DNA of 32,014 bases from a virus, in IMG/VR virus record IMGVR_UViG_3300046747_000131, positions 1 to 32,014 of that record; one strand, 5' to 3'. The notes below the pieces were generated by a model that searched no databases, was not told the DNA's origin, and saw only the letters and a program-made list of their open reading frames with translations. This document shows positions 5,350-15,611 of this stretch, piece after piece (positions within the stretch are counted from its first letter, which is position 1; each line of letters opens with the position of its first letter). Made by a program: the position numbers and the translations under genes.

Positions 5350-6096
5350 ATGGCCACTCAACACCGTTACGTGATGCCGCTTATCATCGCGCTCGCCGGC
5401 CAGAAGGGCGGCGTCGGTAAGTCGACGCTCGCGATCTCGATCGCCGCCGAGTGGCACCGTCGAGGCGTTCGGGTGCTCCTCGTCGACGCCGACGACGAAC
5501 AACGCACCGCGGTAACGTGGGCCGAGGTTGCCGCCGAACACGGCCTCGACGCGCCGCGGTGCGTGCCCATGGGCGACAACATTCGCACCGAGTTGTTACG
5601 CGTGATCGGCGCCGAACAGTACGACGTGGTTATCGTCGACACCCCGGGCCGCGTCGGCACGCGCACCACGTACGCGCTCGGTGTCTCGCACGTGGCGCTA
5701 TTGCCGTGCGGCCCGAGCGGCCCCGAAATATGGGCAATGGCCGGCACGCTCGAGCAGGCCGCCGACGTCGCCGCGGTGACGGGGCTCGAGGTAGCGATTC
5801 TAATCACGCGCCGGCAACCCGGCACGGTGCTCGGCCGCCGCGTGCGCGTGGTGCTCGACGACGATACCGAGGTAACGGTACTCGACACCGAGCTCGATCA
5901 ACGGATCGCATATGCCGAGGCGATCACGGGAGGGCACGGCCCCACCACGTACGACTCGACGAGCGACGCGGCACGCGAGGTGCGTCGGTTGATCACCGAG
6001 CTCGAGGTGCGGTTCGAGGTGCAATCAATGACCGTGAGCGCAATGGGCCGCCGCGTGGCGCGTCGACTCGGGCTCACGAACGGGAGGAAACGCTAA
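5350..6096 (+). CDS. parA: ParA-type partition ATPase
   Basis: 248 residues from the ATG at 5350; an ATG at 5374 (giving MPLIIALAGQKGG) is an equally credible start, and neither has a clear ribosome site, so the message may have a very short leader. The deviant Walker A 'GQKGGVGKST' (17-26) contains both the signature lysine K19 and K24. Walker A' is 'LLVDADDE' (43-50) and Walker B is 'VVIVDTPG' (93-100, D97). There is no N-terminal HTH extension, so this is the small type Ib form that pairs with RHH centromere-binding proteins. Such ATPases bind DNA non-specifically in the ATP state and move plasmid copies apart. The RHH gene follows after two bases. Its presence suggests the element replicates as a plasmid in the host. 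Confidence 0.93.
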   Translation: MATQHRYVMPLIIALAGQKGGVGKSTLAISIAAEWHRRGVRVLLVDADDEQRTAVTWAEVAAEHGLDAPRCVPMGDNIRTELLRVIGAEQYDVVIVDTPGRVGTRTTYALGVSHVALLPCGPSGPEIWAMAGTLEQAADVAAVTGLEVAILITRRQPGTVLGRRVRVVLDDDTEVTVLDTELDQRIAYAEAITGGHGPTTYDSTSDAAREVRRLITELEVRFEVQSMTVSAMGRRVARRLGLTNGRKR

Positions 6097-9139: not shown

Positions 9140-9471
9140 AGGAGATCGCCGCCGAGCACGGGGTATCGCAACCGGTGCTCTATTACTGGTTGAAACGCGA
9201 GGCCGACGGCACCCTCGACACGACACCGGGTAAGACTCGCAAGGCACCGTCGACGGCGATCACGGCCTCGAGCCCGGCACCGATCGAACGCCGCCGCGGT
9301 GAACAACTCGAGCTCGAACGCCTCGAGCCGATCGTGATCACCTCGACAACCAGGTCGGCGGCACCGCTCTCGCCTTCGGAACACGACGAGCTCGTGTTAC
9401 TACGGGTTGAGGTGCGTCGGTTGCGGCGCGCGTTGCTCGCGTATGCCGAGCTCGAGGAGGGGCCGCCGTGA
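9064..9471 (+). CDS. Helix-turn-helix protein without a normal start codon
   Basis: The open frame begins after a TGA at 9061 and runs to TGA 9469-9471. It reads 'VWTPAERRRAIKAY...', then 'KEIAAEHGVSQPVLYYWLKRE', a textbook HTH of the transposase/Hin-like type (helix 2 'VKEIAAEHG', recognition helix 'SQPVLYYWLKR'). The only standard start in frame is GTG 9175, which would cut the HTH in half, so translation probably enters from the 8828 gene by a -1 shift around 9070, or uses a non-standard start, or the sequence has an indel. The remainder has a Ser/Thr/Pro linker and a C-terminal leucine-rich coiled coil (DELVLLRVEVRRLRRALLAY), suggesting a dimeric DNA-binding regulator. It ends with a GTGA overlap onto the next gene. 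Confidence 0.55.
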   Translation, partial: GARVWTPAERRRAIKAYKTRGERPVKEIAAEHGVSQPVLYYWLKREADGTLDTTPGKTRKAPSTAITASSPAPIERRRGEQLELERLEPIVITSTTRSAAPLSPSEHDELVLLRVEVRRLRRALLAYAELEEGPP

Positions 9472-9824
9472 CACGAGACGAACACAACGACGCGATCACC
9501 GCGCTCGCCGGCAAGCTAACGCGCGTGGTCGACGAGGCGCGTATCGAGTGGTTCGAGCAGTACGGCGGCCTCACCGGGTTCGACATGCTCGAGGCCGCGG
9601 CGTTTACCCGCGCGCTCGTTGGCTCGATCGTCGCCATGTACCGACGCGCGCACGGCACCCGGCCGGCGTTCGAGCACCTCGTGAGATCGATCGAAAACTA
9701 CCCGGCGTTTGCCACCGTCGAGGCCGCCATGTTGTACGGGGTGCCGATCGTGCCGGTGTCGGCCGAGGTGTTCGACGAGCTCGAGGCACGCGGCCGGGGT
9801 GCGCCGCGCGGGCCGGTTCACTAG
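9468..9824 (+). CDS. Unidentified 118-residue helical protein
   Basis: GTG at 9468 overlaps the HTH gene stop. Mostly alpha-helical: 'DEHNDAITALAGKLTRVVDEAR', 'FDMLEAAAFTRALVGSIVAMYRR', 'FEHLVRSIENYPAFATVEAAM'. A moderately hydrophobic segment near residues 45-65 is not strong enough to be a membrane helix. Coupled to an HTH gene, it could be a partner protein, but nothing identifies it. It is the last plus-strand gene; its stop TAG is within box array E. Confidence 0.65.
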   Translation: MTRDEHNDAITALAGKLTRVVDEARIEWFEQYGGLTGFDMLEAAAFTRALVGSIVAMYRRAHGTRPAFEHLVRSIENYPAFATVEAAMLYGVPIVPVSAEVFDELEARGRGAPRGPVH

Positions 9825-9874
9825 TGGACTAGTCCACCGGTGCACTAGTGGACGGGTGCACCGGTGGACTGTCG
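9811..9874. repeat. Box array E: eight 8-bp boxes at the convergent boundary
   Basis: Boxes in order: GGCCGGTT (degenerate), CACTAGTG, GACTAGTC, CACCGGTG, CACTAGTG, GACGGGTG, CACCGGTG, GACTGTCG (degenerate). The six core boxes run 9819-9866 without spacing. It is the longest array and sits between the last plus-strand gene and the end of the whole minus-strand virion operon, where no promoter is needed. About 45 bases of AT-richer sequence follow to the hydrolase stop at 9920; I see no clear terminator there. Confidence 0.9.
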
Positions 9875-9919
9875 AAATAGGCTAGAAAACAAGGCCGGTA
9901 CGAGCTCGAGCGGCGCGGG

Positions 9920-11236
9920 TTACGGCTCGCCGCCGTCGTCAAACGGCCTCATGATCCGGCGTTGCGGCCGTGCCTTGCGAAAGCGGTGCACGGCGAGCCC
10001 GATCAGGATCGCGACGAGTACAGGGGGAATCGTCACGAGCACGTAATCTTGCCATCGCCAATTCGTCGGCGTCGGAAACACCGACGCGGGCCGAGCGCGT
10101 GCGTGCCACTGCCCGACCATCGTGCCGCCGAACGTCGTAAGGTTCGCCGGCTCGATCGAGGCCGTGCTCGTGTCGTACACGTGGCAAAAGCTATTGTTCG
10201 AGCACTTGGCATTACTCAAGTCGTTGTCATCCCACGACCAGGAAAGCCACCCGATCCCGTTTTGCTCGGCCACGTGGATCACGCGCTCGGGAGTGATCAA
10301 CGTCGGCGACGGCCCTATGTTGCGGCCGGGGCCGAACTCACCGACGACGACGGCGAGCCCGGTGCCGTGTAGTGCGGCGAGCGTCGGCGCGAGATCATGT
10401 TGACCGTTCCAAGCTGGCGGCACCCCACCGGCCGTATCGTTCCAGTTGCCGTAAACGTGCACGTCGAACAGTGTGTTCTGCTCGACGTCGGCGGCGAACA
10501 CTGCGCGGCCGTGGTTGATAATCGCCGTCGCATTTTGCCCGCACCCGGGAGCGTCAACCATGATCGCGCCGTGCCACCCGGCCGCGCGGATCCTCGGTAT
10601 CGCCGACACATACGCGTCGCGCCACTTGATCGGATCGTCACCCCACTCATTCGCGATGTTGAGGATCATGAGCCGCTCGATCTGAGCGTACTTTTTCGCG
10701 TCTCTTACCCACCGATTGACCATCGTCTCAAACGAGCCCGAGTCTGATTTACAGGTACCATCCCAATACCCCGGCACGGCGACGGCCCTACCGAACGTGG
10801 TCGATCCTCCGATGTTTGGCGATTGCATGTCTGCAATAGTCCGATCGGGATCGTTTGAAAAATGCACGAGCCAACGAGTCGTGTTTGACGCGGTGTGGCC
10901 TAATCCTTGGGCCCAGTTATCCTGATGTGTTTTATTCGTTCCGCGTGGCCGAAACTCGACGCCGTTGCCGTCGAACAACTCGGTACCGACGACATAGAAC
11001 CCTTGCCCCTTACTCGCGGGAGGCCGGTTTGACGTCGGTGGCGGCCCGGCGTCGACCACGGGTGGCGGCCCGGCGTCGGGCACCGGTACACCGGCGTCGG
11101 CCTCGGGTAGTGCGCCACCGTCGACGACGATGATCGGCGGCCCATCGGGGCACGTGAGCGACACGGTTGCCGTTTGCGCGACGGCGACGAACGCCGGCAC
11201 GAGCACCGCGAGCAGGATCAACGCTAGAGCTTTCAT
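9920..11236 (-). CDS. Secreted, membrane-anchored GH5-type glycoside hydrolase
   Basis: 438 residues from the ATG at 11236 (GAGG eight bases upstream). A signal peptide (1-20, hydrophobic core LALILLAVLVPAFVAVA, cut near AQTA) is followed by a linker with repeated DAG units (about 45-72), a TIM-barrel catalytic domain (about 78-380) and a C-terminal membrane helix (about 399-418) with a basic cytoplasmic tail. GH5 hallmarks: acid/base in 'NIANEWG' (E197), 'DVHVYGNW' (H260, Y262) and nucleophile in 'VVGEFGPG' (E300), plus 'WLSWSW'. Clan GH-A enzymes of this sort cut beta-mannans or cellulose; which one cannot be told. It ends the virion operon, so may act on host surface polysaccharide late in infection or alter the envelope of a lysogen. 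The DAG linker is typical of Polyangia secreted proteins, pointing to acquisition from the host. Confidence 0.82.
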   Translation of the reverse strand: MKALALILLAVLVPAFVAVAQTATVSLTCPDGPPIIVVDGGALPEADAGVPVPDAGPPPVVDAGPPPTSNRPPASKGQGFYVVGTELFDGNGVEFRPRGTNKTHQDNWAQGLGHTASNTTRWLVHFSNDPDRTIADMQSPNIGGSTTFGRAVAVPGYWDGTCKSDSGSFETMVNRWVRDAKKYAQIERLMILNIANEWGDDPIKWRDAYVSAIPRIRAAGWHGAIMVDAPGCGQNATAIINHGRAVFAADVEQNTLFDVHVYGNWNDTAGGVPPAWNGQHDLAPTLAALHGTGLAVVVGEFGPGRNIGPSPTLITPERVIHVAEQNGIGWLSWSWDDNDLSNAKCSNNSFCHVYDTSTASIEPANLTTFGGTMVGQWHARARPASVFPTPTNWRWQDYVLVTIPPVLVAILIGLAVHRFRKARPQRRIMRPFDDGGEP

Positions 11237-11263: not shown

Positions 11264-12733
11264 CTAAGCAAACGCGCACTGCGCGATCGAGTCGGTGCCG
11301 GCGTAGTTGCGCTCGGCATACCAAAGTGTTCGGCCGTCCGGCGAGAGCGCGATCCCTTGCGTACCGTTCGGCGTTGCACGCGGCAAGCGACGCACCTCGA
11401 CAAAACCCGCGCCGTTCCAAGCGTACACGTCGAGTAACTCTTGATCGTAGATCTCGTGAACGTTGCAGTAAATCAGGCCGTCAACCCACACGAGGCCGTC
11501 GTACCCGGTGCCGGCGCCGTACCCGCCGCTCGAACCCGTGATGGTAAAGGTAAGGGGGTACGCCGCGATCTGATTCCAGTCGGCGTCATACCGGACGATC
11601 TCTTTCGTCGCGTGAAACACGGCCCACCACGTGCCGGCATAGAACGCGAGCGCCTCGGAAAAGCGATCGCCGGGTAGTTGCCGGTGCGTCTGATATGCGA
11701 GCGTGTTTGCGTCGTACTGCACCACGTACGACGTCGCGAGGTTCGCCACGTACTTTGCGGCCGACGCGTACAACACGCCGCCGCGCAGTGCGAGTCCGTT
11801 GATCTGTTGTTTGTCGGTGGGGTTGTCGCCGCTCACGTTGCGCGACGTCACGAGCGCGCCGGCCACGGTGTATTTGTAGATCGTCGACGAGCTCGAGAAC
11901 CATACGTGCACACCGTCGGTAACGATCCCTTGCGCGTCAGCACTAACGCCGGCCACCGTGAACCGCGAGACGAACCGAGGAGCCGGCACCCGCGGAAACG
12001 CCGACGACGGCACCGGGTACGCGCCGGCACCGGGGTAGCGACACACGCCGCGTGTGACGCGCAGATCGTCGATCTTACCCTTGAACCACCGGGGTATCCC
12101 GAAACCGTTTATGGGGCTAAGCAGGCCGACGCGCGCGGCCGTGTTCGGAAAGTTGCCACGCGTGCCCGTCATTGCGGCCGACGCGACGACAACGCCGTTG
12201 ACGCGGGTGCGTGCCGTCGTGCCCTCGACGGTGAGCGCTACGTGCGTCCACGTTGCCACCGGCACCGCGCTCGCCGGGGTGTTGTAATCACAGTTCGTCG
12301 CGCTCCCGGTGCGGACACTCGATCGCAACGAGCCGTCGACGTTCGTCTCAAACAGGATCTCGAACGACGAATAGTTTCCGGCCTGATCCGACACACAAAA
12401 AATAGAGTGATCCGACGCGTGATCGGTGACGTAGATCCACGCCTCGACGGTGAAGTCGGCGACACCGCATAGATCCGCGCGGATGATCTCGAGGTAGTCG
12501 CCGGCCCCGTCGAACGCGATCGAACCGGCTCCGAACTTCGGCCCGGTGGTTGTGATCTGAGCGTCTCCCAAAACCGTCCACGCATACCCGGAGCTGTCAA
12601 CGATCGCCTTTGACGTGTTGGCGCCGTCGCCGTGCAAGAGTACCGACACGCTCGAGTAACTCGGATCGTCGGCGGCGATCGAGGGCCGGCGTGGTGGCGG
12701 CGTTTGCGCGCTCGCGGTGATGCCGGCGATCAC
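11264..12733 (-). CDS. LamG domain plus beta-propeller-like protein, probable receptor-binding or fibre protein
   Basis: 489 residues from a GTG at 12733 that overlaps the preceding stop (GTGTGA). Residues about 20-235 form a LamG/concanavalin-like lectin domain ('SVSVLLHGDGANT', 'FGAGSIAFDGAGDYLEI', 'FTVEAWIYVTD', 'TWTHVALTVEGTTARTRVNG', 'KIDDLRVTRG'). Residues about 250-489 show repeated short strand motifs ('GIVTDGVHVWFSSSSTIYKY', 'LALRGGVLYASAA', 'GLVWVDGLIYC', 'GIALSPDGRTLWYAERN'), as in six-bladed propellers. Such domains bind carbohydrate. Position after the gpI-like and poly-Gly proteins, in the usual place of tail fibres, suggests host recognition. Confidence 0.75.
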   Translation of the reverse strand: MIAGITASAQTPPPRRPSIAADDPSYSSVSVLLHGDGANTSKAIVDSSGYAWTVLGDAQITTTGPKFGAGSIAFDGAGDYLEIIRADLCGVADFTVEAWIYVTDHASDHSIFCVSDQAGNYSSFEILFETNVDGSLRSSVRTGSATNCDYNTPASAVPVATWTHVALTVEGTTARTRVNGVVVASAAMTGTRGNFPNTAARVGLLSPINGFGIPRWFKGKIDDLRVTRGVCRYPGAGAYPVPSSAFPRVPAPRFVSRFTVAGVSADAQGIVTDGVHVWFSSSSTIYKYTVAGALVTSRNVSGDNPTDKQQINGLALRGGVLYASAAKYVANLATSYVVQYDANTLAYQTHRQLPGDRFSEALAFYAGTWWAVFHATKEIVRYDADWNQIAAYPLTFTITGSSGGYGAGTGYDGLVWVDGLIYCNVHEIYDQELLDVYAWNGAGFVEVRRLPRATPNGTQGIALSPDGRTLWYAERNYAGTDSIAQCAFA

Positions 12734-14594: not shown

Positions 14595-15611
14595 TTACGG
14601 CGACGTCAACGGGGCAATGTTCGTCCACGGAAACAACAAGTGCCCGAGTGAGAGTCGGGGTTGCGCACCGGCGAGATCGTACGTCGACGGGTAGTCGCGT
14701 GAAACTTTGTTGAGATAGACAAGATCGACCTTGCCCACGTGCCGGTTGCCGACCGTCGGGTGCACGATAAACGGCCGTTGCGTGCGCCACTTGTTGTCGG
14801 TGCCGAGCTGTTGATACAACGGCGGCGACGAACCGACGCCGGAACACGTCAAGTGTGAGATCGACGAGACGGCCCACGCGTTGCCGCCTCGCCACGTCGC
14901 GCCGGTGCCAGCGAGGCCGCCGTCGCCGAGCCCCGGCGTGCCGAACACGTTTACCCATGCTCCGGCGCCGGCAAGGATGTTGTTTGTTACACCCGGCTCG
15001 AGATCGACGAGGGGCAACCAGAACGCGCCACCACCCCGGGTGTTATTCGTTTTGTTCCAGATCGCAAAAAACCACGGGCTCACGTTGCCGGGTAGCACGG
15101 CGTTCTCGGCGCCGATCTGCAACCATTGCTCGGTCGTCGACGAGTACGACATTTCGGATCCGGTACTGAGATACATTGACGTGCCGAGAACTGCGTAAGG
15201 GCCGACCATCGCGGGAGGTGCCGTCGCGCTTGCGCCGGTAGTGGCCACGGCGTTTCCGGCCCATACGTTCGAAGTCTCGGCACTCGAGCTCGTCGTGCGT
15301 TGCACGACGTACACGCGTCCGCTAGCGATCTCCTCGAGCACAAACCACGCGCTCGTGTTCGAGATCGAGTTCGGCCACGCGTTGAAGTTGCCGCCTCCCA
15401 ATGCCCACTGCGGCGACTTGGTGAACACGTCGAACGAACCGGCCACACCCGCGGTTTGCCCGCGCAACTGAAACGCGGCCTTACCATCTCCCGAGCCGAT
15501 CAGTTGCCACCGGCCCGACGCCAAAAGCGCATCCTTTACCGAGATCCAGATCTTACCGACCTTGTCTGACAGGGTCGGTAACAACACGTTGGTATTGAAC
15601 GCGAAAGCCAT
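14595..15611 (-). CDS. Putative tail structural protein of unknown family
   Basis: 338 residues from the ATG at 15611, chosen because GGGAGG precedes it by nine bases; an upstream start at 15650 would overlap the J gene. Rich in Gly, Thr, Ser and Trp with short strands ('WQLIGSGDGKAAFQLRG', 'WFVLEEIASGRVYVVQRT', 'QWLQIGAENAVLPGNVSPWFFAIW'), typical of beta-rich virion proteins. The C-terminal segment is 'KVDLVYLNKVSRDYPSTYDLAG'. It sits between J and the gpI-like gene, a position usually empty, so it may be a baseplate-associated fibre or spacer. Family not recognised. Confidence 0.7.
   Translation of the reverse strand: MAFAFNTNVLLPTLSDKVGKIWISVKDALLASGRWQLIGSGDGKAAFQLRGQTAGVAGSFDVFTKSPQWALGGGNFNAWPNSISNTSAWFVLEEIASGRVYVVQRTTSSSAETSNVWAGNAVATTGASATAPPAMVGPYAVLGTSMYLSTGSEMSYSSTTEQWLQIGAENAVLPGNVSPWFFAIWNKTNNTRGGGAFWLPLVDLEPGVTNNILAGAGAWVNVFGTPGLGDGGLAGTGATWRGGNAWAVSSISHLTCSGVGSSPPLYQQLGTDNKWRTQRPFIVHPTVGNRHVGKVDLVYLNKVSRDYPSTYDLAGAQPRLSLGHLLFPWTNIAPLTSP

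Follow-up and report, generated by a model that had tools for sequence, protein, structure and literature searches.

What is a mannanase-type hydrolase with a signal peptide and a membrane anchor doing at the end of a phage virion operon? The question is raised by a bacterial virus from soil, IMGVR_UViG_3300046747_000131, of which positions 1 to 32,014 were analysed (the whole 32,014-nucleotide stretch, hereafter the window); the contig belongs to lineage A and does not span a complete genome, roughly 4 kb of the early region being unseen in the GH5 carriers of that lineage. A sequence-only reading of the window had described an open reading frame at 9920-11236 with a signal peptide, a DAG linker, a glutamate pair (E197 and E300) and a C-terminal helix at the end of the virion operon, the strand being unstated. 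All of these features are confirmed here. The frame is real, lies on the minus strand (9920..11236), starts with an ATG at 11236, closes with a stop codon ending at 9920 and encodes 438 aa. It is the final gene of the virion operon, with a gap of 27 nt to the last tail gene (11264..12733, minus strand), which encodes a LamG-domain tail or receptor-binding-type protein (Pfam PF13385) and marks the left edge of the slot discussed below. The right edge is a convergent gene on the plus strand (9468..9824) that lies 95 nt past the end of the GH5 gene and whose homologue (G010_2) adjoins the amidase cassette of the related genome G010. Nested, 8-bp-spaced inverted repeats lie between the convergent genes (9813..9876), with perfect 15-nt arms at 9831-9845 and 9856-9870; they possibly form a two-way terminator or a binding site.

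The protein combines features of export and of membrane retention. Residues 1-20 (11177..11236, minus strand) form a signal peptide by hydropathy and by an AxA cleavage motif followed by Q or E; the site is AVA ahead of Q21 in the window protein, and AxA before Q or E is present in all nine relatives. Residues 21-73 (11018..11176, minus strand) align as a conserved TVxLTC stretch, in which C29 is invariant, and a DAG/Pro-rich linker whose DAG repeats cover residues 30 to 73 or so. Beyond the catalytic domain, a hydrophobic segment at residues 398-416 (9989..10045, minus strand; mean Kyte-Doolittle 2.5) constitutes a C-terminal membrane helix that is kept wherever the C-terminus is present; two rows of the alignment (L002 and L009) are cut at that end, and a third (L003) begins inside the signal peptide. 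The basic C-terminal tail (residues 417-438; 9923..9988, minus strand) is predicted to be cytoplasmic and, by the positive-inside rule, places the catalytic domain on the predicted outer side of the inner membrane. Inspection of the sequence ahead of the helix revealed no LPXTG or MYXO-CTERM sorting motif. The architecture is not a product of chance: in 14 related phage contigs, with 298 called proteins 200 aa or longer, hydrophobic segments at both the N- and the C-terminus are confined to the GH5 proteins. All three phage lineages that carry the gene retain, where readable, the full series of signal peptide, linker, GH5 domain and C-terminal helix.

The catalytic domain (residues 79-338; 10223..11002, minus strand) was delimited by Pfam, a phmmer search of the PDB and Foldseek. 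Pfam PF00150 scores 67.9 bits against a family cut-off of 23.5, and the best solved relative is a Bacillus endo-beta-1,4-mannanase (1wky; E 1.8e-31 over residues 73-339). An AlphaFold2 model built from the ten sequences of the family is weak (pLDDT 53); Foldseek with this model ranked GH5 mannanases first. GH5 is the sole domain, neither Pfam nor PHROG finding a peptidoglycan-hydrolase domain, and the protein has no PHROG match. The nearest GH5 type is that of the subfamily-8-type beta-mannanases (1wky, 3jug, 2whj and 2whl), with best identities of about 28-34%, and the two groups are alike in the TIM-barrel GH5 fold, the catalytic Glu pair and the active-site Arg, Asn, His, Tyr and Trp. The predicted acid/base, E197 (10646..10648, minus strand; in NIANEW), is invariant in 10/10 phage sequences, and the predicted nucleophile, E300 (10337..10339, minus strand; in GEFG), in the nine that reach the position; both align with the mannanase residues, and R121, N196, H260, Y262 and W333/W335 likewise match non-phage relatives.

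The canonical GH5 active site comprises eight residues (Arg, His, Asn, Glu, His, Tyr, Glu and Trp), seven of which are kept. The eighth, the His ending strand beta-3 (EVHDATG), is His in the six non-phage and the PDB relatives compared, whereas W158 (10763..10765, minus strand) takes its place in every one of the ten phage sequences. The phage clade also differs from the mannanases in C232, which replaces a conserved Trp (Tyr in one relative), in R305, which replaces a His found in most relatives compared, in extra cysteines (C162, C345 and C351), and in the N-terminal DAG linker and C-terminal membrane helix. Judged from the alignment, the phage protein is a divergent GH5 enzyme whose membership of the family stands. 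Its specificity for mannan is in doubt, W158 substituting for the beta-3 His in all phage members; probably the retaining-type chemistry has been kept and the substrate has changed.

Homologues of the gene, at 65-96% identity, are encoded on nine IMG/VR contigs, and a tenth (G018) holds only the start of the gene at its end. Together with the window, these contigs fall into three unrelated phage lineages that have the GH5 gene as their sole common gene. Lineage A (the window, G001 and G008) is contractile with Mu-like head genes; lineage B (G002, G005, G006, G007, G009 and G018) is contractile with genomes of 61-66 kb; and lineage C (G003 and G004) features an SU10-type adaptor and an integrase. 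The gene is under purifying selection (dN/dS about 0.1-0.4). In a tree with six non-phage sequences, each lineage forms one monophyletic GH5 branch, which indicates that the gene is kept rather than carried as passing cargo, and the phage clade is separated from the non-phage sequences by a stem of 2.54 changes per site. This branching pattern and the length of the stem indicate a gene that is old in these phages and was not recently captured from a host. The sequence-only reading had considered host origin likely, and this view lost ground: given the length of the stem, the presence of the gene in three phage lineages and the absence of any close GH5 relative from 84,980 bacterial and archaeal genomes searched with short peptide patterns (derived from the single protein and from the alignment), a recent host origin is not supported. 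The sole match in a phage collection, MT835572 (L050; labelled Bacteriophage sp.), was rejected as a phage relative because bacterial-type housekeeping genes surround the match in the stretch read; it is probably a mislabelled bacterial fragment. Terminase and polymerase searches against named phages returned no relative close enough for naming a host.

Position provides the most direct indication of function. In lineage-A relatives that lack GH5, a holin and endolysin cassette follows the tail genes where the window has its GH5 gene. The complete circular genome G010, with a terminase 83% identical, has homologous tail genes on one side of the slot and the homologue of the convergent gene on the other, and between them a holin (PF09682, E 1e-4; phrog_6918) followed by an Amidase_2 endolysin (E 5e-18). 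G011, also complete, ends its tail with a receptor-binding module that has its homologue in lineage B; an Rz/holin-like gene and an amidase come next. In lineage B, the last gene of this module has a 4-nt overlap with the GH5 gene at the start codon, and the homologue of that last gene, G011_8, lies immediately ahead of the holin-like gene and the amidase in G011. Similarly, G027 (complete) and G028 belong to lineage A by backbone and carry the same receptor-binding module, after which come genes for a holin-like protein, a probable small lipoprotein and a CHAP endolysin. Set against the window and lineage B, these four genomes indicate that one slot holds Amidase_2, CHAP or GH5. The GH5 gene thus occupies an endolysin's location, the lysis slot at the end of the late operon, with lineage C as the exception: there it lies in the replication strand close to the integrase, outside the late operon. 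The slot is not always a lysin slot, as two distant relatives (L089 and L090) have no recognised lysin beside it. Downstream of GH5, lineage B carries varied cargo (e.g., L006:11375-12538). Pfam identifies a TnpB-type transposase in G005; inspection by eye suggests asparagine-synthase-like and methyltransferase genes for G006, and for G009 genes of ABC/GNAT and formyltransferase-like type.

Gene content follows the same division. Six-frame searches found Amidase_2 in G010 and G011 only and CHAP in G027 and G028 only, all four being without GH5; Phage_lysozyme and SLT were absent from all twelve contigs searched. No peptidoglycan hydrolase was among the Pfam matches listed for the called genes of the window and of G001, G005 and G003, which represent lineages A, B and C, respectively, and a Pfam rescan of most late candidates at E 0.05 likewise gave none. 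No contig carries both GH5 and a recognisable peptidoglycan hydrolase, complete circular GH5 genomes included. G003, G009, G010, G011 and G027 end in exact terminal repeats of 127 bp, as is typical of closed circular assemblies, and G005 in a near-exact one of 150 bp. Overall, the slot never combines the two types in the nine GH5 contigs and four endolysin contigs, a contrast among related contigs that represents few independent events rather than a formal test. Within the known peptidoglycan hydrolase families, the GH5 genomes offer no other endolysin candidate. Searches of the GH5 contigs for a holin or spanin identified none, yielding weak two-helix candidates only. One of these, a small membrane protein at 2484-2699 of the window (G000_6), weakly resembles lineage-B G005_3 (1 of 2000 shuffles reaches the score); the pair was rejected as a pinholin-like partner because the similarity is too weak and the placement differs.

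We propose that the GH5 gene is a phage lysis or release hydrolase that has replaced the usual endolysin cassette by a non-homologous gene, and we put the probability of this reading at roughly 0.55. With the slot held by holin and endolysin genes in close relatives, the product is probably an exit enzyme rather than a gene for digesting the food of the host. Three roles had been suggested from the sequence alone: changing the surface polysaccharide, protecting the infected cell from further phage, and helping release. The last fits best, the gene lying exactly where relatives keep their holin and endolysin genes. Under the proposed mechanism, the GH5 gene would be transcribed last in the virion operon and its product exported by the host Sec system by means of the signal peptide. 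The C-terminal helix would then halt the protein in the inner membrane, with the catalytic domain outside and the basic tail inside, where the retaining active site could cut a glycan of the envelope, be it peptidoglycan or some other polysaccharide of the periplasm or wall, and so let the progeny out. This reading is supported by the exchange within the slot, the mutual exclusion, the architecture kept under purifying selection in three lineages, the single GH5 branch of each lineage and the precedent of anchored endolysins. Counting against it, the nearest characterised relatives cut beta-mannan, and we know of no GH5 peptidoglycan hydrolase. The holin and spanin result, the lineage-C gene outside the late operon and the lysin-free slot of L089 and L090 count in the same direction, and an endolysin of an unknown family may lie elsewhere in the GH5 phages.

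The main alternative, which we regard as possible if somewhat unlikely, is a surface-polysaccharide enzyme or a host-benefit auxiliary gene: tethered in the membrane, the product would trim exported capsule, O-antigen or slime in the infected or lysogenic cell, lysis would fall to an unrecognised gene elsewhere, and the shared slot would reflect a general hot spot for insertions where the tail operon ends. GH5 genes of soil viruses are as a rule classed among the auxiliary metabolic genes that serve carbon breakdown. The mannanase type of the catalytic domain suits such a role, yet the mannanase cleft residues are replaced, and an enzyme aimed at soil polymers would hardly be expected to carry a membrane anchor. 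A soil-virus GH5 enzyme with proven endomannanase activity (PMC6786970), the temperate or plasmid-like appearance of these phages (integrases in B and C, ParA/ParB-like genes in A and B), the varied cargo just downstream in lineage B and the lineage-C gene near an integrase are all compatible with it as well. What it accommodates poorly is the exact swap with holin and endolysin cassettes and the want of a recognised peptidoglycan hydrolase in the GH5 contigs, complete genomes included. The domain is of cellular type, as an auxiliary metabolic gene might be, yet each lineage has kept the gene stably, and its place is the lysis slot.

Protection from further phage, by an enzyme that removes or blocks a glycan receptor and so stops adsorption, would draw on the same export and anchoring, on the apparently temperate nature of the phages and on the tail-fibre homologues, and probably the hosts, that lineages A and B have in common. 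We consider it improbable: a gene in the late virion operon of A and B is at the wrong time for prophage immunity, and the displacement of the lysis cassette would be left unexplained. Least probable is a virion-associated depolymerase used at entry. The gene adjoins tail genes, but its product has a signal peptide and a membrane anchor, stands alone without fusion to a tail protein, has no tail PHROG and does not resemble the large GH5-bearing tail proteins found in Klebsiella and Erwinia phages. The sequence-only reading had likewise set aside a tail depolymerase, naming closest similarity to phage tail proteins as one finding that would overturn it; the catalytic domain proved far closer to cellular mannanases (E 1e-31), and the nearest viral folds, large tail-spike GH5 proteins, share 12-16% identity with it at fold level.

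The lysis or release reading can be placed among known lysis systems. SAR endolysins such as P1 Lyz carry a weakly hydrophobic N-terminal anchor that is able to leave the membrane. Like these and other signal-peptide endolysins, the protein described here would be Sec-exported and tethered on the outer face of the inner membrane (a predicted topology in our case), whereas its anchor is C-terminal and strongly hydrophobic rather than N-terminal and releasable. It has a cleavable-type signal peptide with AxA together with a strong C-terminal helix, and no weak N-terminal signal-anchor-release domain, so it does not qualify as an SAR endolysin. The Amidase_2 and CHAP endolysins of G010, G011, G027 and G028 occupy the same slot, by inference with the same role, and differ in belonging to non-homologous peptidoglycan amidase/peptidase families with holin-like genes alongside. 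A catalytic domain followed by a C-terminal transmembrane domain is known from the endolysins Enc34 and M4Lys (PMC8943055, PMC7143992), of which Enc34 was first recognised by its position and the absence of another candidate. Their domain is the lysozyme-like PHA02564 and they lack a signal peptide, in contrast to the GH5 domain and cleavable-type signal peptide here. That a soil virus can carry a GH5 gene of mannanase type is itself already known: Emerson et al. 2018 showed mannan cleavage by the GH5 product of an uncultivated soil virus and read it as polymer degradation (PMC6786970). Going by its description, that enzyme shares with ours the GH5 family and a soil-virus source, whereas the gene described here lies in the lysis slot and encodes a membrane-anchored product. 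In the open-licence PubMed Central papers searched, we found no GH5 protein with this architecture in an endolysin slot.

A bolder version of the proposal is offered tentatively, at somewhat less than even odds: a mannanase-fold GH5 protein, Sec-exported and tethered to the inner membrane, would have taken over from holin and endolysin as the lysis glycosidase of at least two unrelated lineages of soil tailed phages, possibly of a third, and would represent a new catalytic class of endolysin. If true, the GH5 family would be added to the phage lysis enzymes, among which none such is known to us, and the unusual order of signal peptide, catalytic domain and C-terminal anchor could dispense with a pore-forming holin for export. 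Virus ecology would also have to be more cautious, since part of the GH5 genes that soil viruses carry and that are read as “carbon-cycling” would in that case serve lysis.

Between the window and G001, the GH5 gene has a dS of 0.11, against 0.32-0.52 for the backbone genes compared, which suggests that the GH5 segment was exchanged recently. The tail-fibre gene at 14595-15611 of the window is 57% identical to lineage-B G007_26, and the G001 fibre allele resembles a different lineage-B gene, G002_60; with fibres swapped between lineages A and B, their hosts are probably shared. A ParA-like partition gene at 5350-6096 of the window has homologues in lineage B, where ParB-like and integrase genes are present as well, so that a temperate or plasmid-like life is possible for these phages. 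A Hint/intein-like domain occurs in a gene of the lineage-B head region (L018:3-647; end of G005).
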